Of a DNA stretch of 47,887 bases, positions 10,387 to 34,511 are shown piece after piece (the first letter of the stretch is position 1; the number at the start of each line of letters is the position of its first letter). Below the pieces are notes generated by a model that worked only from the letters and a program-made list of their open reading frames with translations, had not been told where the DNA came from and made no database searches. The stretch is taken from positions 1-47,887 of IMG/VR virus record IMGVR_UViG_3300029286_000066; one strand, given 5' to 3'. A program made the position numbers and the translations under genes. This stretch comes from a virus.

Positions 10387-10408
10387 ATTATCATCTCCTT
10401 TCATATTG

Positions 10409-10417
10409 ATTATAGCA
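10409..10417 (-). promoter_or_regulatory. Extended -10 promoter
   Basis: The minus strand reads TGCTATAAT (10417-10409), a consensus -10 with the TGN extension. The -35 region has only a weak match, as expected for extended -10 promoters. It lies 23 nt upstream of the start at 10386 and would give a leader of about 15 nt. It would drive the SSB-recA-SbcCD operon independently of the clamp-loader gene. Confidence 0.65.
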
Positions 10418-10439
10418 TACTTTGTGTAAAAATCTGAGA

Positions 10440-12521
10440 CTATTTCAAGGTCAATGAAATATAAATTTGGTTTACTATCCCTGCTTTTGCATTGTAGAAG
10501 TTCGGTTCACTGAAAGTATCAATGACGGCAGACAATCTATCATCACGATCTTTGTTAAGAAGAACAGCAATCATATATCCGAGAATCATTTGTCTAAGTT
10601 TCTCCGGTTCAATTTCTGCAAGTAATTCTTTGACCAACTTCTTGACATCTTTCCAAGAAGAACCTTTCAAGATTGCTTGGCATAATTCTTTGCTGCTTGC
10701 ACTCACTAAAGTTACTGCTGAGAGTGCGGCAATTGCTCGGTCCTCGTCTTCAATATCAATAACTGAGTCTAACATCACAACTGCATTTCTGGACAACCCT
10801 TCAGACAACAAAACAATCTCTTTTAAGATTGATTCCGGGTAATCATCAAGTCCTTCTTTCTTTGTAATGCTTCTTAACAGACCCATCATCTCCATTGTTT
10901 TCAATGGTTTAGTGGCATATTGATGACACCTGCCAATAAGTGTAGGAAGCAATTGATCAGGTTCCGTTGTACAAAGAATAAAATAAACGTGATTAGGAGG
11001 ATCTTCAAGCAGTTTCAGCAAGGCGGATTGACTGTCTCTTGTTTGCCTATGGCAGTTATGCACCAACACCTCATTAGCGAAGTAAGAAGGATGACCATCA
11101 ATTTCTAAATCATAGAACTCTACATACCCTTGATTCTTTTCTGCACTGCCGATAATACTAGAGAAAGACTCGTCATTACAGTTTGGTTCATAAATCTCAA
11201 CACGGTCCACCCTAATTCGTTTAGAAGCTTTGTCTTTTTCCGATCCAGTTCTTTTCGACCAGCTATCTTGTGACTCCATCCGTCTAATTCGATTGCTATC
11301 ATAAGATCCGGATTTGCTATATCTATTTTGTAATGATGTGGAAATCCTTCTGAAGAATTTTTTCCAGTTTTTACTACATAATTGTTTTTCCATGAACTCC
11401 CTAAAGAAGTCAATAATAAAAGTTCCGGAGCACTGGGGACTGAGCCATTCCCCCCACGTCGAGGTAGCACAAGAAGAGTTCCGTTCAATCTGCGAGAAGC
11501 TATTTGTTTTTTTACCACCCCCGGTATTTGTGAGGGGTTGTTCTTTTTCATTCTTTCTGAGGAAGCTTGATTTAATTTTGCCCTTAATGAAGGCTCCATA
11601 TTGGCAAGACCTTGTCGATGTTTTTCTTTGTATTCTAAAGAATTCCTCATTTCTACTATATGAGGAAGCCGTTGTCGGTATTTGCCAACACAACTCTGGG
11701 AACAGAATCTTCCGTGCTCTTTGTGGGATACCATATATGTGAAAAGATTTCCACAATATTCGCAAGGTTTTTGACCAGTGATTCCCATTCCTTTCTCTCG
11801 ACTTTTCTTTTTGCTCGCACAAGATTTGCTGCAACAAACGGTCTTGTTTCGATTTTTGTACACAAATTCGTTTTGACATTCCGGACAAATATGTTTCATC
11901 GTATTTTATTTTCTCCTTTCTTAGATAGCTGTTGTCATACACACTATCACAAGAAAAGTCGAAAATCAAACTATTTCTTGTCAGTTCTTTTGCTTTTACC
12001 CAACCAGTATCTGTAAAAAACAAATGATCGGAAGAACAGATAGTTTCAGATTTATTGGTGATTACTTTAACTACTCTGTTTAAAGAAACCTTATTTTTAA
12101 AAATTGATTTTACTTTTTCTTTTCCGGATAGATTAAAAACAACATCCCCCGGAATTATATTTTGAATCTCTTTCTTACCAGTGGGTGTTTCCACCATAGT
12201 TCCTTTAGCAAAACATTCATCGAGGATATAGACTCTTGTATTGCCGAGTATTGGTGCATACACACAAGTTTCTGCAAGGGCTCTGACAGAATCAATACCT
12301 CTAAGATTAGACATATTCAATTCTTCCACGTTTTCACATTTCAGCATTGTTCCGATGATTCTTGCGAATGTTGTTTTACCTGTTCCTGTAGGACCACTGA
12401 ATAAGAAAGCATGAGGAAAGTCTTTCTTTCTACTAAAGATTCCTTCTAATCCATCTTTGATTGATTGATTACCAAACACATCTTCGATTTTTCCTGGTCT
12501 ATGGATTGTTTGCAGGGGCAT
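10440..12521 (-). CDS. Clamp-loader large subunit (AAA+) interrupted by an intein
   Basis: The precursor is 693 residues. Residues 1-102 and 490-693 are the exteins. Walker A is GPTGTGKT (43-50). Walker B is VYILDE, directly interrupted after its Glu (102). After splicing, DE joins to CHRQT, giving the DECH-box of gamma/tau and T4 gp44-type loaders. The C-extein has sensor-1 (YFILCTTEP), the Arg-finger-like region (LIGRCHQY) and a helical collar. The spliced protein would be about 306 residues, the size of T4 gp44 (319). No separate small loader subunit was recognised nearby. The protein loads the sliding clamp encoded at 15904-17031. Confidence 0.9.
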   Translation of the reverse strand: MPLQTIHRPGKIEDVFGNQSIKDGLEGIFSRKKDFPHAFLFSGPTGTGKTTFARIIGTMLKCENVEELNMSNLRGIDSVRALAETCVYAPILGNTRVYILDECFAKGTMVETPTGKKEIQNIIPGDVVFNLSGKEKVKSIFKNKVSLNRVVKVITNKSETICSSDHLFFTDTGWVKAKELTRNSLIFDFSCDSVYDNSYLRKEKIKYDETYLSGMSKRICVQKSKQDRLLQQILCEQKEKSRERNGNHWSKTLRILWKSFHIYGIPQRARKILFPELCWQIPTTASSYSRNEEFFRIQRKTSTRSCQYGAFIKGKIKSSFLRKNEKEQPLTNTGGGKKTNSFSQIERNSSCATSTWGEWLSPQCSGTFIIDFFREFMEKQLCSKNWKKFFRRISTSLQNRYSKSGSYDSNRIRRMESQDSWSKRTGSEKDKASKRIRVDRVEIYEPNCNDESFSSIIGSAEKNQGYVEFYDLEIDGHPSYFANEVLVHNCHRQTRDSQSALLKLLEDPPNHVYFILCTTEPDQLLPTLIGRCHQYATKPLKTMEMMGLLRSITKKEGLDDYPESILKEIVLLSEGLSRNAVVMLDSVIDIEDEDRAIAALSAVTLVSASSKELCQAILKGSSWKDVKKLVKELLAEIEPEKLRQMILGYMIAVLLNKDRDDRLSAVIDTFSEPNFYNAKAGIVNQIYISLTLK
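11055..12215 (-). mobile_element. Intein in the clamp loader, with out-of-frame endonuclease gene
   Basis: An intein of 387 codons begins with Cys (CFAKGTMVETPTGKKEI, block A) at residue 103. Block B looks like SSDHLFFTDTGWVKA. Block F is VEFYDLEIDGHPSYF and block G is VLVHN, followed by Cys (+1). The splicing domain is about 105 residues plus about 22, the size of a mini-intein. The 260 codons between (residues about 208-467) are low-complexity S/R/K-rich in this frame but open, because they encode an endonuclease in the +1 frame (11120-11899). Insertion is at the Walker B site, a known hot spot. Confidence 0.88.
11120..11899 (-). CDS. EDxHD/Vsr-like homing endonuclease nested in the intein
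   Basis: A 259-residue protein encoded out of frame inside the intein, with its own AAAGGAG 14 nt before the ATG. It has two zinc-finger-like modules (CPECQNEF...CCSKSC and CEYCGNLF...FCSQSC), a K/R-rich linker, and a C-terminal catalytic domain with FPHHYKIDIANPDLM, AIELDGWSH and RKKTKLLNELGWTVLRF. This is the arrangement of Vsr/DUF559-type nucleases, a group that includes the EDxHD homing endonuclease I-Bth0305I. It would cut intein-less clamp-loader alleles and drive homing of the whole intein. Confidence 0.82.
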   Translation of the reverse strand: MKHICPECQNEFVYKNRNKTVCCSKSCASKKKSREKGMGITGQKPCEYCGNLFTYMVSHKEHGRFCSQSCVGKYRQRLPHIVEMRNSLEYKEKHRQGLANMEPSLRAKLNQASSERMKKNNPSQIPGVVKKQIASRRLNGTLLVLPRRGGNGSVPSAPELLLLTSLGSSWKNNYVVKTGKNSSEGFPHHYKIDIANPDLMIAIELDGWSHKIAGRKELDRKKTKLLNELGWTVLRFMNQTVMTSLSLVLSAVQKRIKGM

Positions 12522-12523
12522 AT

Positions 12524-12745
12524 TTATTCTCCTTTTGTTTCAGGTTCCATTATTTTAGGTCCCCATACAGCAATGTCATAGGGTTTTGCTGCATAGACTC
12601 TTGGTCCGTTCAAACCTCGATCAAAAACACAAGTGATAAACAACATCGGAACTTCTCCGTTAATATCTACAATCAAATCATACCACTGATGACTTTTTGT
12701 AGATTTTGCAAAATACAAACCTGTTTCTTGCGGAACTTTTGACAT
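12524..12745 (-). CDS. Hypothetical protein between polymerase and clamp loader (73 aa)
   Basis: A compact strand-rich sequence (GLYFAKSTKSHQWYDLIVDING, MLFITCVFD, YDIAVWGPKI) with an acidic, lysine-containing tail. It resembles short single-domain phage proteins with a beta-sandwich, but I recognise no family. It is 2 nt from the clamp loader start and 1 nt from the polymerase stop, so it belongs to the replisome operon. Confidence 0.65.
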   Translation of the reverse strand: MSKVPQETGLYFAKSTKSHQWYDLIVDINGEVPMLFITCVFDRGLNGPRVYAAKPYDIAVWGPKIMEPETKGE

Positions 12746-12746
12746 T

Positions 12747-15281
12747 TTAATCTCCTTTGATTTCCTCCTTGGAATACCAAGACTGATCTATTTCTGTTTT
12801 TTCCCATTCAACAGGAACAGGAACATTAATCCATTCGTAATTTTCTCTTATCCTTTCTGTAGCAATTTCCGTACACAGTTTGACCACAAATTCATATTCA
12901 TCAGGAACACAATCTATGATACAGCAATCATGAATTTGTCCGATTACTTTAGATTTCATTTGCCGTTGCCTAAATTCAGCAACGATTTGTGTCAGGCTCC
13001 AAAGTAGACAATGAAAAGCTGTTCCTTGGAAAGCATAATTAACAATGGCATTTCTACCCATATAACCAGAACATCTGAAACCCGTAAGCAGTTCTACATA
13101 TCCGGTCTTTTCATATTTCTTATACCAACCCTCTTGCCATTCTTTAAACACATGAAACTTTTTCCAATATTTTTCTTCTACTTCTTTAACGTGCTGCACA
13201 AAATCAGCTTCTGCTTTTGCTTTATTTTTGATCACACCTTTGTCAAGAAGATGTTCATAAACGGTTATACCATCTCCTGTAGGCAAATCTTTGCACTCTC
13301 TCCAGATGTTTCTTCCGCAGTTTCCCCAGTAAGAACCGTACCATTCAGGGAAGATGAAACCATTCTTTGTATAGAATCTCAGGTTCTTTGTGACTTTATC
13401 GTGGAGCAGTAAAAAGATGTCTGCCGCAGTATCACGGTGCATATCTGTTGATGTGTCTTTGCAATAAGATATAAGAACAGGATCTCCTGTGTATGCACAG
13501 CCCATTTTTACTTCGATACCGGAATAGTCAAAGTCTACAATCATGTTTCCTTCAGACGGAATTATACCTGATCTTGCATATCTTTTAGCTTCCTCATTAC
13601 GAACGGGTATGTTTTGCAAATTGGGCCGATCCGATTGGCCGCGAAAAGTTTTAGGGATTACCAGTCCAAAGAAAGGATGAATGCGTTCATCATCATCTAT
13701 TTCCCGTAAGAACTGCTTCATGTAAGTACCATCTGTTTTTTTAATCTGACTTAGTTTTGTAATCTCCTTAGCAAGAGGAGTGTTCAATTTGCTCATTGTA
13801 TCAGCATCAACGGAGTTATTTCCTTTGTCTGTGACTTTCGGTGGTTTGAGTTTCATGATGTCAAAGAACATCATCCTCAAATCATCAGAAGAACCGAGAT
13901 TAGGAAGTCTGCCCGTTGCTTTGAGGAACCGTTGACATTCATCATAAGCAAGTAGTTCCTTCTTTCTTTCTTCAATCTGTTTCTCTAATTCAATATGAGA
14001 ATTTTTGTAATAAGGAACATCAACATTTACACCGTTAATCTGAACATCTCCGAGAGCTAAAGTGCCTTCTACGAATAGATCAAGACCTTTATCAAGATGA
14101 TCATCTATTAATTCTTTTTGTAGACGAAATAATCCTTTAGTTAAATAAGAATCAATTCCTCCATACAAAAGAAGCTTGTTTATCGGTGCTTGTAGCACAC
14201 GATTAAAACCTTTTTCATCGGCATCCTCAAGATACGGGCTGATCTCTTTTGCATAATCACCAACACCCCAATGAATAAAGGATTGAAACTTCAATCCTGT
14301 GTATTTAGATCGGTTGTCAATGATATGAGCTGCAAGCATTGTGTCCCAGTGCCAGTTATTCGGTTCTATTCCAAGCATTACTTTAGACCAGACATGTTCA
14401 AATTGGGCATTATGGGCTATCTTTTTAGATTTATTCAACAAAACATCTTTCCATCTTCTTTCAATCTGTCTTTGTTGAAGAGGTGTCCATATATGTTGAA
14501 GAGGAAAAGAATAAGCTCCCATCTTATTATCTACAGCAAAGGAAACGGTAGCTATTTTATGACCTTTTCTGTAAGGTTTTAATCCTGTAGTCTCATAATC
14601 AAAGAATAAGTGAGATGAAGGATGCTTTATTTCTTCTTCTAATGAATCACAAACCGCATCGTAATCTTTTAATAGGACTATTTTATCAAAGTCGGGGCTG
14701 TATTCTTTAGAGACATCTTGTTTATTCCGGATGCAATGAATGGCAAATTTTAAATCCCTTTCAAATTGAGATTGAGTTAAGGAATCCTCACTCTTCTTAA
14801 AAGCATAAGAAGGATGAAACATCGGAATAACCCAAGCATTGTTTTCATGATCAGGAATACAAAGACCTCTCCATCGAGAAGGAGAAAGATCAGAGAAACG
14901 ATTCATATAGAATGAGGAAATAGCTGCTTCCCCCATTAGCCATATGAATTTAGGTTTCAAATCTTTAATGGCTTTTTCGATATGAGGATAGCAGCAAGCT
15001 ATCTCCTCCCTTGTTGGCCCATCTTCTCTTGTTGTTCTGCACCGAACAGCATCAGTCTTCCAGAAATCCTTGTAAAGATCAATACCCATACCACTTAGAG
15101 CATCTTTGAAAAAAGAACCGATGTCTCCGTCTCCAGGGGATTCTCCGATTACTAAAGTGCTTAGACTTCCTTCTCCTTTGATTTCAGACTTAGGACGAAT
15201 CTTTGTATTAAGACCACAATCGGAACACATGTGTTCTGTTGAACGGGTAACGAAATCATCCATCGAAAAGAATCCTGACAT
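12747..15281 (-). CDS. polA: Uracil-DNA-glycosylase-like domain fused to family A DNA polymerase
   Basis: 844 residues. Residues 1-185 look like a family 4/5 UDG: CSDCGL (19-24) plus VRCRTTREDG and EIACCYP supply four cysteines for an Fe-S cluster, GESPGDGD is motif A and MFHPSYAF is motif B. Next is a DnaQ-like 3'-5' exonuclease (FFDYETTGLKPY). The polymerase domain has motif A DFDYSGIEVKMG, motif B with LRFYTKNG...WYGSYWG, and motif C QIHDCCIID. There is no 5'-3' nuclease domain; that activity comes from 6417-7280. UDG-PolA fusions are known in some large phages, from memory. Whether the UDG part is catalytic is uncertain: it may only sense uracil or bind DNA. Confidence 0.9.
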   Translation of the reverse strand: MSGFFSMDDFVTRSTEHMCSDCGLNTKIRPKSEIKGEGSLSTLVIGESPGDGDIGSFFKDALSGMGIDLYKDFWKTDAVRCRTTREDGPTREEIACCYPHIEKAIKDLKPKFIWLMGEAAISSFYMNRFSDLSPSRWRGLCIPDHENNAWVIPMFHPSYAFKKSEDSLTQSQFERDLKFAIHCIRNKQDVSKEYSPDFDKIVLLKDYDAVCDSLEEEIKHPSSHLFFDYETTGLKPYRKGHKIATVSFAVDNKMGAYSFPLQHIWTPLQQRQIERRWKDVLLNKSKKIAHNAQFEHVWSKVMLGIEPNNWHWDTMLAAHIIDNRSKYTGLKFQSFIHWGVGDYAKEISPYLEDADEKGFNRVLQAPINKLLLYGGIDSYLTKGLFRLQKELIDDHLDKGLDLFVEGTLALGDVQINGVNVDVPYYKNSHIELEKQIEERKKELLAYDECQRFLKATGRLPNLGSSDDLRMMFFDIMKLKPPKVTDKGNNSVDADTMSKLNTPLAKEITKLSQIKKTDGTYMKQFLREIDDDERIHPFFGLVIPKTFRGQSDRPNLQNIPVRNEEAKRYARSGIIPSEGNMIVDFDYSGIEVKMGCAYTGDPVLISYCKDTSTDMHRDTAADIFLLLHDKVTKNLRFYTKNGFIFPEWYGSYWGNCGRNIWRECKDLPTGDGITVYEHLLDKGVIKNKAKAEADFVQHVKEVEEKYWKKFHVFKEWQEGWYKKYEKTGYVELLTGFRCSGYMGRNAIVNYAFQGTAFHCLLWSLTQIVAEFRQRQMKSKVIGQIHDCCIIDCVPDEYEFVVKLCTEIATERIRENYEWINVPVPVEWEKTEIDQSWYSKEEIKGD

Positions 15282-19792: not shown

Positions 19793-20782
19793 TTAATCCT
19801 CCAATCCGTGAATGTAATTTCTAATAGATAGTTGACCAGATTTAATCAAATGACTATCCACATGAGTGTTCCATAAACAACCCGGACACATATCAGAAAC
19901 TTGTTTCTTCCAAATTTCTGTGAACAGTTCAAAGTGGGCAGACAAATCCCAAAGTTTAATATCAGATAAACCTTTGATATAGAAATCATCACAAGGCCTC
20001 ATAGATCCATCACAATCTACTGTGACGAAGGATGGAAACAAATCATTTGCACAATTCCAAGTAAATAAAGTGTTATCAGTGGCATCACTTTTTAATCTGT
20101 TGATGAATGGTTTACTTGCATGGCAGAGATAACCTTCTTCCTTCATGAAGTAAACTTTTTTCAGCACCTCACAAAGATCCTTTGCATCTTTAGCAGAAAA
20201 CAAAAGATTAGGATCATTACCTTTTACTTTAGAACCTGGTTGATGTCTGTCAGGATGAATGATGTCAAAGAATGTCCAGATATTATCCTCGGACATTTCT
20301 TCAATCACACTCGGAAGCATTTTATAGTTTTGCTTTGTCAGAGTCATGACTACGGCACAATCTCTGATGGGTTTGAAACGTCGGAAAGATTTGATTACTT
20401 CTAAAGCTTTTTTCGACTTAGCTTGTGAGCTACGATCATCACAAACAGCGTCGTACGACGTGGTAATTGAGCGGAGACCGTGCTCATGAAGTATTTGCAG
20501 CTTCATGTCAAGATCAGTAGTGACGCCGCTTGTAATGACAGTGGTGTGCATTCCTAATCCTTCTGCAAACTGAATGACTTCAGGAAGTTTATCGAAGTCG
20601 GCTAGCGGCTCAGCTCCATATATAGCGACCAGTTTACATCCAAGTTCTCTAAGATCCACCATTCCCTTCTTCCATTGAGTAAGAGTCGGAGTGTTGCACT
20701 CACCCGTTGCCATAGCACAATAAGAGCATTTCAAAGGACAGGTACGACTCCAGAGCAATTCGCACTTCACCAACTTCATCAT
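19793..20782 (-). CDS. Radical SAM protein of the 7-deazaguanine cluster, novel role
   Basis: A CxxxCxxC motif (residues 15-22, CPLKCSYC) binds the SAM-cleaving 4Fe-4S cluster. Then comes a GAEPL motif (for GGEP) near 55, followed by a TIM-barrel-like repeat. The C-terminus holds extra cysteines (CANDL, VDCDGSMRPCDDF, MCPGC) resembling a SPASM/twitch auxiliary cluster. It is not QueE (a separate gene has that). It sits between FolE and QueC with 4-nt overlap or 1-nt spacing, so it is part of the pathway or of a following step. Possible roles: modification of preQ0 or of the base in DNA. The ATG pair at 20782/20779 leaves the start uncertain by one codon. Confidence 0.8.
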   Translation of the reverse strand: MMKLVKCELLWSRTCPLKCSYCAMATGECNTPTLTQWKKGMVDLRELGCKLVAIYGAEPLADFDKLPEVIQFAEGLGMHTTVITSGVTTDLDMKLQILHEHGLRSITTSYDAVCDDRSSQAKSKKALEVIKSFRRFKPIRDCAVVMTLTKQNYKMLPSVIEEMSEDNIWTFFDIIHPDRHQPGSKVKGNDPNLLFSAKDAKDLCEVLKKVYFMKEEGYLCHASKPFINRLKSDATDNTLFTWNCANDLFPSFVTVDCDGSMRPCDDFYIKGLSDIKLWDLSAHFELFTEIWKKQVSDMCPGCLWNTHVDSHLIKSGQLSIRNYIHGLED

Positions 20783-26353: not shown

Positions 26354-29089
26354 TCATAAGTTTCTCCATATTATTTCACTGTCTAAAGCAAATTGACCAA
26401 TATCTAATTGCTGAAGTATCAAAGCCTGTTTTGCTCTATCAAAAGCTTTATACCGATGCTCAGTAACAGCAACCCGAGCTGTGCCTGCTCTTTTATCTTC
26501 AGAGGGTCGGCTAAGAGTTAATTGTACATCTACATGAGCTAATTTACCTATCCAACCCGAAGAATCTCTGTCATCAACATCTGGTTTTCCTAAACCTCCT
26601 CTATTAACCTGTCCTACTGTGAATAATGTACAATGATGTTTTTGAGCCATTGCTACTGCTTCTTTCCAAGTATCATCAATTTGCATATATGATTCTTTTT
26701 TTGAAAGAGGTTTTAAAATATCAACATAGTCAATAAGAATAATATCAGGGATGAATTCCAATTTCTGCTCTAAATTATGTAAATGGGTCTCAATATCATG
26801 CAAACTTGCGGAAAATCGAGGGTATGTTTTTATTTGTATGCCATCTCCATACATTTTTTGAATGGCATCTATTTCTTTTTTAACAATCGGTTGTTTATAT
26901 TGCCGCTTACCTATGCTTTCAAACCATGTTTCCACTTTGTAATCTTTCAATCCTTGTTCTCGGCAATATGTGCAAGGACGGTATTCCATATCTACATCAT
27001 AATGAGGAACAACACCATTTCTTTTAAGATTTATTCGGTTGGTTCTTTCTTTTCGTTCACAGGAATTGTCTTGGTTATATAAACAATCAAAAACGGGATA
27101 GGTACAAGTTTCTTCAGATTCCCTATTTCCCAGGGCTGTTAGCCTTTTAAGTAGCCTATCATTTACATATTTTTCAGACATTTCTAAGGAAACAATGAGG
27201 GATTTGAATTTTTTGAAATAGGCTTGCACTGCTACTTCTAACAGAAACCAAGAATTATGAACAATGATGTCATTAGAAATGAAATTATGATTATTTTCTA
27301 TTACTAAATCATAGGTTTCTTTTTCACCTATGCAAGTAATTTCTACAATTTCATCCCATAAAATATCATCAGTTAATAAATTTTGAAGTTTTTCATTATC
27401 AGGATAACAAACCGTAATTTGAGATAATCGTGATCGACTAATTTTTCCCTTCTTTTTAAAAGACTGTCCTACAGCATTGGATTTCCATCGTAATTCATAA
27501 GGAATTATTTCTTTAATAACTTCAAAAGGAATAGCTTCAATGTTGCTCTTAGCACATCTTTTTTTATTTAGATTTTTTATTATGTTTTCCGCCCTTTCTT
27601 GTTTTTCAAATAAAAAACCAATTTCTGATAAATATCTATTTACGTTAATAGTGTCTTGAAATTCTAATTCCCAAGAATAGAACCCTTTGAAAATATTTTT
27701 TTGTATTGCTCCTATTATTCCAAATCGTAACAAAAGATGCTGTACTTGATATACAAGTTTTTTGCTTGCTGAGGAATAACTAACGGCAATATTATTTTTA
27801 ACTTGGAAAACAGACCCGTCACAAGTGAACAAAACAGATAAAAAAACAGAAAGCATTTGGTTGTTTAATTGGAATACGAAATCCGGAATTGTTTTTTCTT
27901 TTGATAATTTTTGATGCAGCCCTAAACTTGTGATCCATTTTCTTGTGTTGGATCCCCCAACACGTCCTCTGCCTTCTTCTTCACAAATAACCCGCACAGT
28001 CATTTCCGATTCTTGCGTTATTTTGTCTCCCATCATTTTAATACAGTTTTTAAAATCTTTTTGTATTCTGCTACATTTATTAGTAAACGTATAACTACCA
28101 TTACTTCGAAAACACCCTTCTGCAATTAAATAAGCCAGTATTTTTAATCTATATTCGGGGTATCTTTTTGTTCCTAAAATAGGGTATCTTCTAGGAACTG
28201 CTATATGGTTCCCTACAAATAATTGACTTAGTGGCAACCATCCTTTAGAAGAATAAAAAGGATGATCTATGGTTACTTCTGTTTCTCGACCTGTTCGGGT
28301 TTTCACTTGATAAACCCATTTAACACCTTGTTTTACAACATCTAAAACCTTATTAAAAACAAAATTATCATGTTCATTTTTGCTCACAGTGAAATCTTTA
28401 TTTTTAATAATTGTTTCTATAGGTTTTATAGCCCCATCAGACATTGTAATTAAAGAACCTTTAATAAGGCATTTTCCGGTTTTGAAAGGAGCCGTTAGAG
28501 CCACAGTCCAACCACGTTCTATTTTACCGATTAATTCTCCTAAAGCACCATTCAATTTCAAATAATCCCGGTCATCATCAAAAAAGACATCCATTATTTT
28601 TCTTGGTTCAAAAGGAGAACAAAAACCTTCTGTTCCTATGGTTATTTTTTTATAACCGGTCATTATTTCTTCCGCTTCTTCTACTCTATCCATAACAAGA
28701 AGACTTTGCATTTTGACAGAATCAATCTCCAATGCCCGTTTCTTAAAAAACCTAAAAGCATTGTCTTGAACATAGTCAATATTGATTTCACCACTTTTTT
28801 CGTATCTTTTACTTATTTTAGACAGGTATATCCCAATAAGTTCTTTATTTTCAGGACCTAAATGTTCGGATTCTATATTATAAATATCTTCAATACATTT
28901 TCCCGGAGCTTCTTCGTATTGTTCAAAATAATCAATGCACCATGCTCCTACATATTTAGCAATGAAACTTTGGAAGCTGTCTGGAGTATATAAAGGTTTT
29001 ATTTCTGTTAAGAATTTGGTTGAAGTGATCATTCCGGTGACAATTTGTTCTTCTATCGTTGAATCTATCAAAGTGCGCTTGATTGTCAT
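26354..29089 (-). CDS. dnaB: Replicative DNA helicase (DnaB-like) with an intein
   Basis: The 911-residue precursor has an N-terminal helical domain (1-150). Walker A is split by the intein: PFKTGK (residues 201-206) joins to SWFLL after splicing. Walker B-like IILIDYVDILKP follows in the C-extein, with TVGQVNRGG (sensor) and VAVTEHRYKA near the end. A Cys-rich insertion (ETCTYP...CTYCREQ) after the P-loop is seen in some phage helicases. The spliced helicase is about 505 residues. It unwinds the fork and should pair with the primase at 30817-31707. Confidence 0.88.
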   Translation of the reverse strand: MTIKRTLIDSTIEEQIVTGMITSTKFLTEIKPLYTPDSFQSFIAKYVGAWCIDYFEQYEEAPGKCIEDIYNIESEHLGPENKELIGIYLSKISKRYEKSGEINIDYVQDNAFRFFKKRALEIDSVKMQSLLVMDRVEEAEEIMTGYKKITIGTEGFCSPFEPRKIMDVFFDDDRDYLKLNGALGELIGKIERGWTVALTAPFKTGKCLIKGSLITMSDGAIKPIETIIKNKDFTVSKNEHDNFVFNKVLDVVKQGVKWVYQVKTRTGRETEVTIDHPFYSSKGWLPLSQLFVGNHIAVPRRYPILGTKRYPEYRLKILAYLIAEGCFRSNGSYTFTNKCSRIQKDFKNCIKMMGDKITQESEMTVRVICEEEGRGRVGGSNTRKWITSLGLHQKLSKEKTIPDFVFQLNNQMLSVFLSVLFTCDGSVFQVKNNIAVSYSSASKKLVYQVQHLLLRFGIIGAIQKNIFKGFYSWELEFQDTINVNRYLSEIGFLFEKQERAENIIKNLNKKRCAKSNIEAIPFEVIKEIIPYELRWKSNAVGQSFKKKGKISRSRLSQITVCYPDNEKLQNLLTDDILWDEIVEITCIGEKETYDLVIENNHNFISNDIIVHNSWFLLEVAVQAYFKKFKSLIVSLEMSEKYVNDRLLKRLTALGNRESEETCTYPVFDCLYNQDNSCERKERTNRINLKRNGVVPHYDVDMEYRPCTYCREQGLKDYKVETWFESIGKRQYKQPIVKKEIDAIQKMYGDGIQIKTYPRFSASLHDIETHLHNLEQKLEFIPDIILIDYVDILKPLSKKESYMQIDDTWKEAVAMAQKHHCTLFTVGQVNRGGLGKPDVDDRDSSGWIGKLAHVDVQLTLSRPSEDKRAGTARVAVTEHRYKAFDRAKQALILQQLDIGQFALDSEIIWRNL
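27254..28471 (-). mobile_element. LAGLIDADG intein in dnaB P-loop
   Basis: A 406-residue intein begins at Cys 207 (CLIKGSLITMSDG, block A), with VTIDHPFYSSKGWLPLSQL as block B. LAGLIDADG motifs are ILAYLIAEGCF and VFLSVLFTCDGSVF. Block F is YDLVIENNHNFI and block G is IVHN before Ser (+1). Insertion directly after GK of the Walker A loop keeps the extein ATP site inactive until splicing, a typical site for DnaB inteins. The endonuclease is in frame, unlike that in the clamp-loader intein. Splice sites are read from motifs only. Confidence 0.88.
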
Positions 29090-33131: not shown

Positions 33132-34511
33132 TCATATCCATCCGTTATCTAAATAAATTAGAAACCTTTCTCCAAAGTGATCCAACAAGAACGGATGTGA
33201 TTGATCGAAAAAATCATGGATAATAACTTCTTTCTTTGTGAGAGTGGTTCTGGTACCTCGACCAATACTTTGAAGAGTCATAATTTCTGACTTGCCTCCG
33301 GCAGCATTGATTACTACATTTAATTCAGGTATTGATATGCCCTCCCGCCATGTAGCTGTGGCAATGACACTTCGAATATGTCCTTCATTAAGAGCTTGTT
33401 TAGCAAGAAGTCGGTTTTCTGATTCTGTTGCTCCTTGCACAAAGACAGTATCAAGACCACAATGACGACACATAGACATAAGAAGTTCACCATGAGCAAT
33501 GTGATTTACCATAACTAAGCAACCCATATTTTTCTTGGTGTATTCTTTTATCAAATCCACAATCATTTTATTCCGATCAAGTCTTCGGACAATCCCTTGT
33601 TCATAAACATCAGGATATTTTCTCAAATCTCGGATGCGCTGAAGTTTCGGGACTTTCATGATCTTGATCTTGATTTCTGCCATGAATCCCTGTTCCATGC
33701 CTTCATTGATTGAAAATTCTCCGATAAGAGGGCCTATGAGTGCCTCCATAGCTAACTTAGCCTCGGCATCGGTGGGCAAAGTAGCTGTTAGACCAATTCT
33801 TATCGGAGCAAAGACTTTGTGAAGTATCTCGGCATATTCTCCCCTTAAAGTGCTGAGGTGGTGGCTTTCATCAGTTATTACAATATCATAGGAGGTTCCA
33901 AGATCATCAGCTAAATCTTTGAATGATTGTCTTGTAGCCACAGTCAAGAATCTGCTATCTTCTTTTCTACCATCCCCGATTATACCAACAGCTTTCTTAC
34001 CAAAGAATTTCTCAGCCTCATTAGTCGTTTGATAAAGTAAATCTTTCGTATGACACAACCACAAAACTTGGTCAACATCTTCTATAGAAGCGATAAGAGA
34101 AAGTCCTAAGAAGGTTTTTCCAGTTCCTGTTGGAGCTTTAAGGATTCCTCTTTCTGCGATAAGCACCTTGTTAATCAAATCCTGCTGAAATGGCCGAAGC
34201 TCTAATCCTTTCGGAAGAATTACTTCTTTTTTGGGAATTAAGAATTTCTCAGGAGGTGTGTAATCCACAGAAACTTTCTGCCGAGCAGCTTCTTGAAGAA
34301 CCCGAGGAATCAAACCCGTAAAGAAAATGTGACCTTTAGCAGTTCTGCTAATGATCGTAGATTTAACACCCTCCATTCTGGTTTTCTTAAATGCCCCCTG
34401 TCTATACCAGACTGTCGGAAAAGATAAGGAATTTCTGACAAGTTCAGACAGAGCAGGGGACATTATAGATTCGATCGGATCTAAAAATCGCATCCAGTAT
34501 TCAGGTTTCAT
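33132..34511 (-). CDS. UvsW-like superfamily 2 helicase
   Basis: 459 residues: an N-terminal DNA-binding region (1-110), then a helicase core with a Q-like motif (LRPFQQDLI), Walker A APTGTGKT, DEAH-variant TDESHHLS, GLTATLPT (motif III), VATATWREGISIPELNVVI (motif V) and QSIGRGTRT (motif VI). UvsW-type helicases resolve branched DNA during recombination-dependent replication. A degraded copy of its C-terminus lies next downstream. Confidence 0.87.
   Translation of the reverse strand: MKPEYWMRFLDPIESIMSPALSELVRNSLSFPTVWYRQGAFKKTRMEGVKSTIISRTAKGHIFFTGLIPRVLQEAARQKVSVDYTPPEKFLIPKKEVILPKGLELRPFQQDLINKVLIAERGILKAPTGTGKTFLGLSLIASIEDVDQVLWLCHTKDLLYQTTNEAEKFFGKKAVGIIGDGRKEDSRFLTVATRQSFKDLADDLGTSYDIVITDESHHLSTLRGEYAEILHKVFAPIRIGLTATLPTDAEAKLAMEALIGPLIGEFSINEGMEQGFMAEIKIKIMKVPKLQRIRDLRKYPDVYEQGIVRRLDRNKMIVDLIKEYTKKNMGCLVMVNHIAHGELLMSMCRHCGLDTVFVQGATESENRLLAKQALNEGHIRSVIATATWREGISIPELNVVINAAGGKSEIMTLQSIGRGTRTTLTKKEVIIHDFFDQSHPFLLDHFGERFLIYLDNGWI

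Follow-up and report, generated by a model that had tools for sequence, protein, structure and literature searches.

We found that a 387-aa intein in a phage clamp-loader gene is very probably a mobile element in which a separate gene, over-printed in the +1 frame, encodes the homing endonuclease. The gene lies in a stretch of viral DNA of 47,887 nucleotides (IMG/VR record IMGVR_UViG_3300029286_000066), hereafter the window. Over-printing is an old, conserved design of a mobile element and not a one-off accident, because about 160 other viral and bacterial sequences have the same double-written layout. The initial annotation of this locus understated the finding, since the arrangement is common to a large family.

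The minus-strand gene at 12521..10440 encodes a 693-aa gamma/tau-like clamp loader. Its N-extein (residues 1-102; 12216..12521, minus) includes Walker A and ends with ...YILDE, its C-extein (10440..11054, minus) begins with CHRQT, and the intein (11055..12215, minus) is inserted between them at DE^CH of Walker B. In frame with both exteins, the intein carries a nucleophile at position 1 (C1, in CFAKGT...), the block B histidine (His64), and a C-terminal His386-Asn387 (...VLVHN), followed by a nucleophile at +1 (Cys+1). Pfam matched Intein_splicing on the host frame (E 6.8e-10), and C1, His64, and Asn387 were invariant across 59 aligned inteins. Structure prediction gave a HINT fold, to which the gp41-1 intein was the nearest solved structure. 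In the AlphaFold model, residues 1-80 and 331-387 showed pLDDT values of 92-98, and the middle mostly 37-73. The N-terminal splicing domain (residues 1-88; 11952..12215, minus; pLDDT about 97 over 1-80) was confidently modeled as a HINT fold, as was the C-terminal splicing domain (residues 331-387; 11055..11225, minus; pLDDT 92-98). The intervening loop (residues 89-330; 11226..11951, minus) was mostly of low confidence, and the endonuclease gene overlaps it from 11899 on. The limits of the intein and its splicing blocks at both ends were correctly placed in the initial annotation, which had considered splicing possible in principle; judged from these sequence features, splicing of the clamp loader is plausible. 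Elsewhere on the minus strand, the window encodes a Family A DNA polymerase with an N-terminal uracil-DNA-glycosylase-like domain (12747..15281) and a radical SAM protein (19793..20782).

The nested gene (11120..11899, minus) encodes a 259-aa EDxHD/Vsr-like (DUF559) homing endonuclease with zinc fingers and an RMKxNNP motif. A Shine-Dalgarno sequence, AAGGAG (11913..11918, minus), is located 13 nt before the ATG, a spacing longer than usual. On the nested frame, Pfam detected a weak zf-FCS finger and DUF559 (E 4.2e-11), a domain whose genes earlier work placed in the EDxHD family (PMC9403480). The catalytic pattern E-x-D-x-x-x-H ... D was present as E204, D206, H210, and D219. The AlphaFold model was confident (mean pLDDT 92) and matched 3hrl and the homing endonuclease I-Bth0305I (3r3p), the latter with a sequence E of 3.7e-4, a TM of 0.70, and a Foldseek probability of 1.00 but an E of 0.02; we took the nuclease to have the catalytic fold of I-Bth0305I. 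No PHROGs family matched the whole nuclease. Taken together, the two AlphaFold models indicate that one stretch of DNA is read as a folded enzyme in the nuclease frame and as a mostly disordered loop in the intein frame.

We counted stop codons in the frames overlapping the nested gene. The intein frame contained none, whereas 19.5 were expected from within-gene synonymous shuffling, and none of 2,000 shuffles gave so low a number; the third frame contained 27. The earlier description of a nested +1-frame endonuclease, apparently with its own start, under an open intein frame from which selection has removed stops was therefore upheld.

A tblastn search of phages returned 40 records, all from Vibrio, Pseudomonas, or Corynebacterium phages, and in each of the eight representatives examined, an unbroken helicase coding sequence holds an intein, with the homologous nuclease in its +1 frame. 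We then scanned IMG/VR and GTDB genomes with a nuclease profile, blind to frame. An alignment query was required to recover relatives in viral contigs, where the nuclease of the studied locus alone found none; a plasmid search returned distant DUF559 genes only. After removal of identical copies, the set comprised 193 loci, 166 with intein blocks (both blocks in 164, the C-terminal block only in two) and 27 without. All 166 intein loci had the nuclease in the same +1 phase, and the intein frame was stop-free in 163; these loci are related, so that counts across the family are not independent. Summed over the 166 loci, the intein frame had 14 stops, where synonymous shuffles predict about 1,500; the other forward phase had 2,696. 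The stops fell in L054, L205, and L290. L054 has a single TGA (L054:3057) in an otherwise open intein frame, read as GTT|GAG in the nuclease frame, which may be a sequencing error or early decay. The five strong nuclease matches lacking the intein had 22, 9, 7, 28, and 31 stops in the corresponding phase, close to the expected numbers; an open frame thus accompanies the intein, not the nuclease. Ordinary DUF559 genes (L104-L125) were used as controls.

Restriction to one phase can probably be explained by the genetic code together with these stop counts. Each intein codon consists of nuclease codon positions 3-1-2. The intein frame can acquire a stop only where AA, AG, or GA follows a nuclease codon with T in third position. 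Since NNT can always be replaced by the synonymous NNC, such stops are always avoidable and any protein can be written; this makes the shared DNA possible. The other forward phase cannot avoid a TGA wherever the codon after Met begins with A. Met precedes I, M, T, N, or K in 152 of the 166 nucleases, often within the conserved RMKxNNPM motif.

Distances between inteins correlated with those between nucleases (Mantel r 0.616, permutation maximum 0.146, n=163), and the two therefore travel together. This co-inheritance and the constant phase indicate an old, family-wide architecture and contradict a recent invasion of a mini-intein by a freestanding gene here, as had been proposed. Mini-inteins without the insert do exist (see below), and at the origin of the family an endonuclease gene may have entered one.

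In every tabulated locus, the intein interrupts the Walker B/DExH motif at DE^CH or directly follows its DEAH; clamp loaders and helicases of the ResIII/DEAD or SNF2 type serve as hosts. The window also encodes a ResIII/DEAD helicase (33132..34511, minus), a type that hosts this intein family elsewhere, in which Pfam detected no intein. Near-identical helicases of Vibrio phages showed a patchy distribution of the intein, with three states at one site: empty (e.g., 1.024.O), mini-intein (K459 and L128; about 150 aa), and nested (1.194.O). Relatives with the intein but without the insert, as sought by the initial annotation, were thus found as identical-site mini-inteins in Vibrio phages (L126-L128), although the Vibrio-phage mini-intein is a diverged allele and not simply the nested intein minus its insert. 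In L126 and L127, the N-terminal part of the helicase has a further intein in Walker A (GAGK^CHRKGT and GGGK^CHRKGT, respectively) beside the DE^CH mini-intein. A 200-aa intein with only a C-terminal nuclease remnant (L103:2627-3266) possibly represents decay towards a mini-intein. An intein-free clamp-loader homologue occurs in Edwardsiella phage ZHS (L009).

We evaluated translation-start signals at the top-ranking candidate start of each locus, which in most cases lay shortly before the first zinc finger. Shine-Dalgarno-like pairing at nested starts had a mean energy of -6.94, compared with -5.38 (sd 0.26) for best-of-m control ATGs, and AGGA/GGAG/GAGG cores were present at 69% of nested starts and 18% of controls. 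Several Vibrio and Pseudomonas phages form the Shine-Dalgarno sequence (GACGAGG) from the codons of the intein's own DEV motif. Start signals were weak in some relatives, and both open reading frames overlap on one mRNA, as expected if programmed ribosomal frameshifting fused the N-terminal intein half to an endonuclease with no start of its own. However, the enrichment of Shine-Dalgarno-like sites and starts immediately before the first zinc finger argues against frameshifting, as do a nested frame open only 6 nt upstream of the ATG at the studied locus and a sole Rfam frameshift-element match of 31 bits against a threshold of 88 bits. We consider frameshifting improbable and an independent start for the over-printed gene far better supported.

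The overlap of the two genes is more than a free loop. At 11192..11212 (minus), endonuclease residues 230-236 (GWTVLRF) are encoded over the intein strand VDRVEI (from residue 336). Across the family, nuclease GWxVLRF overlaps the intein strand V[DE][SR]VE[IV], which precedes block F. The Gly codon of GWxVLRF was GGG, giving intein Val, in 130 of 147 nested genes, whereas the control RGGNG glycines of these genes had it in 132/408 (Fisher 9e-34) and genes lacking the intein in 3/27 (2e-15 against nested genes). The adjacent Val codon was purine-ended in 129/138 nested genes and 9/26 without the intein. Kinship inflates these P values, although the family is very divergent. The endonuclease C-terminus is truly double-coded with the C-terminal splicing domain. 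Compared with stop-free synonymous permutations, loops were slightly poorer in hydrophobic residues (mean z -0.59, se 0.10) and carried less positive charge (z -1.28, se 0.15); ordinary genes scored close to 0. We do not treat this as main evidence, since the difference is small, the control was conditioned differently on stops, and the double-coded C-terminus may contribute.

Three loci depart from the nested arrangement. L290 has the same frames, but eight stops interrupt its intein frame where it overlaps the nuclease; DEVFVD* closes the N half, and in the C half an ATG, without a clear preceding Shine-Dalgarno sequence, stands immediately before FKRVESVEIYES. It is a split-intein ("fractured gene") version of the same element. 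In L236 and L239, the nuclease is freestanding and lies directly upstream of a helicase that lacks this intein; the helicase frame of L239 is interrupted near the insertion site. All three fall inside the nested radiation in a midpoint-rooted tree with weak deep support, which suggests that they derive from the nested state. Over-printed inteins may form a large and ancient class, specialized on viral ATPases at Walker B/DExH and held together by double coding, that has given rise to some split inteins and to some freestanding EDxHD endonucleases beside helicases. On this view, once a nested gene starts independently, loss of the open intein frame would leave a split intein of the kind seen in L290. 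We offer this broader view tentatively, as somewhat short of probable.

L290 shows that a split arrangement occurs in the family, and the studied intein might likewise not splice in cis, with the nested gene as sole functional product or the intein acting as split halves, and the open frame a relic. A relic frame would gather stops, whereas 163 of 166 are open with the splicing residues kept, and intein residues in the overlap are selected at nuclease-silent positions. This makes loss of cis-splicing slightly less credible even than frameshifting.

We compared substitution at the three nuclease codon positions. Related pairs differed 899/726/1783 times at positions 1/2/3, and the L003/L005 pair 3/0/32 times. 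Nuclease position 3 is intein position 1, and the loop thus changes freely while the nuclease is conserved. Remnants of the nuclease do occur in the family (e.g., L103), and a degenerate, non-functional endonuclease frame would leave in effect a large mini-intein. With change strongest at the silent third position, catalytic E, D, H, and D invariant in 69 sequences, and the confident model described above, we regard such degeneration as very unlikely. Introns commonly carry endonuclease open reading frames, but no Rfam intron matched in 10400..12600 even at E 1 and the flanking sequence codes for a HINT fold whose catalytic residues are conserved, so that a self-splicing RNA intron is scarcely conceivable.

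The preferred reading, an intein with an over-printed gene, leads to a model in which splicing, separate translation of the nuclease, cutting, and homing are each inferred. Ribosomes starting at the clamp-loader ATG would translate the entire intein frame. The HINT domain would fold from the two ends of the intein, leaving the middle as a disordered loop, and self-excision would restore Walker B (DE-CH). Other ribosomes would initiate at the nested Shine-Dalgarno/ATG and release a free EDxHD (Vsr-like) endonuclease. This enzyme presumably cuts intein-free Walker B/DExH alleles, and repair would copy the intein in.

An intein and its homing endonuclease can thus be two proteins from one DNA stretch, separately expressible and evolvable yet physically inseparable. 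The family provides more than 160 natural cases in which a folded enzyme and a splicing protein overlap at length on the same strand. It also offers a simple reason for its single phase and perhaps a path to split inteins, which are in wide use as tools. Annotation misses the over-printed nucleases; in the phage records listed, the nuclease match sits under one annotated host protein.

Among the papers compared with our finding, only PMC11855218 is close; other work on related subjects includes Dassa et al. 2009, Gorbalenya 1998 (Non-canonical inteins), and Gosselin 2025. PMC11855218 describes out-of-frame HNH endonucleases in phage methylases, the ShiLan domain and the Pacc40 insertion, and cites, for overlapping frames, a 2025 preprint by Gosselin et al. 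on actinobacteriophage inteins with non-canonical architecture (bioRxiv 2025.01.02.630785); going by that citation, the preprint may overlap with our finding. Priority for over-printed inteins is uncertain because out-of-frame endonucleases have been published and the preprint is cited for overlapping frames. As in our locus, the ShiLan and Pacc40 endonucleases lie concealed in a second frame of a host gene that stays uninterrupted and yields an in-frame product with little structure, but they have no splicing domain, are HNH and not EDxHD, and lack a recognisable Shine-Dalgarno sequence (PMC11855218). We rejected a ShiLan-type HNH insertion here, as a splicing domain is present and the nuclease is EDxHD.

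Classical inteins with LAGLIDADG or HNH endonucleases likewise have a HINT domain with the endonuclease at the usual insertion point, but they encode it in the intein's own frame. The same phage offers this contrast in a DnaB-like helicase (26354..29089, minus), whose intein, the second in this phage and a classical one, has an in-frame LAGLIDADG domain. We searched for relatives with the nuclease continuous with the intein frame and found none among the 166 loci, all of them +1, and this class was rejected for the studied intein. I-Bth0305I (PDB 3r3p), the EDxHD homing endonuclease of a phage intron, shares the catalytic fold of the nested nuclease, but an intron encodes the former and an intein the latter.

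Dassa et al. 2009 (NAR gkp095) reportedly described fractured genes, in which a free-standing endonuclease, often of the EDxHD type, separates the two halves of a split intein. The studied locus resembles them in having an EDxHD-type endonuclease with its own start between intein halves, and its nearest HINT structure is that of gp41-1, an intein that we take to come from a fractured gene. The uvsW genes of S16 and PM2, fractured genes with another kind of nuclease, have 17 and 22 stops between the halves. In contrast, the intein frame here is continuous and stop-free, with halves that do not lie in separate open reading frames, and we rejected assignment of the locus to the fractured-gene class.
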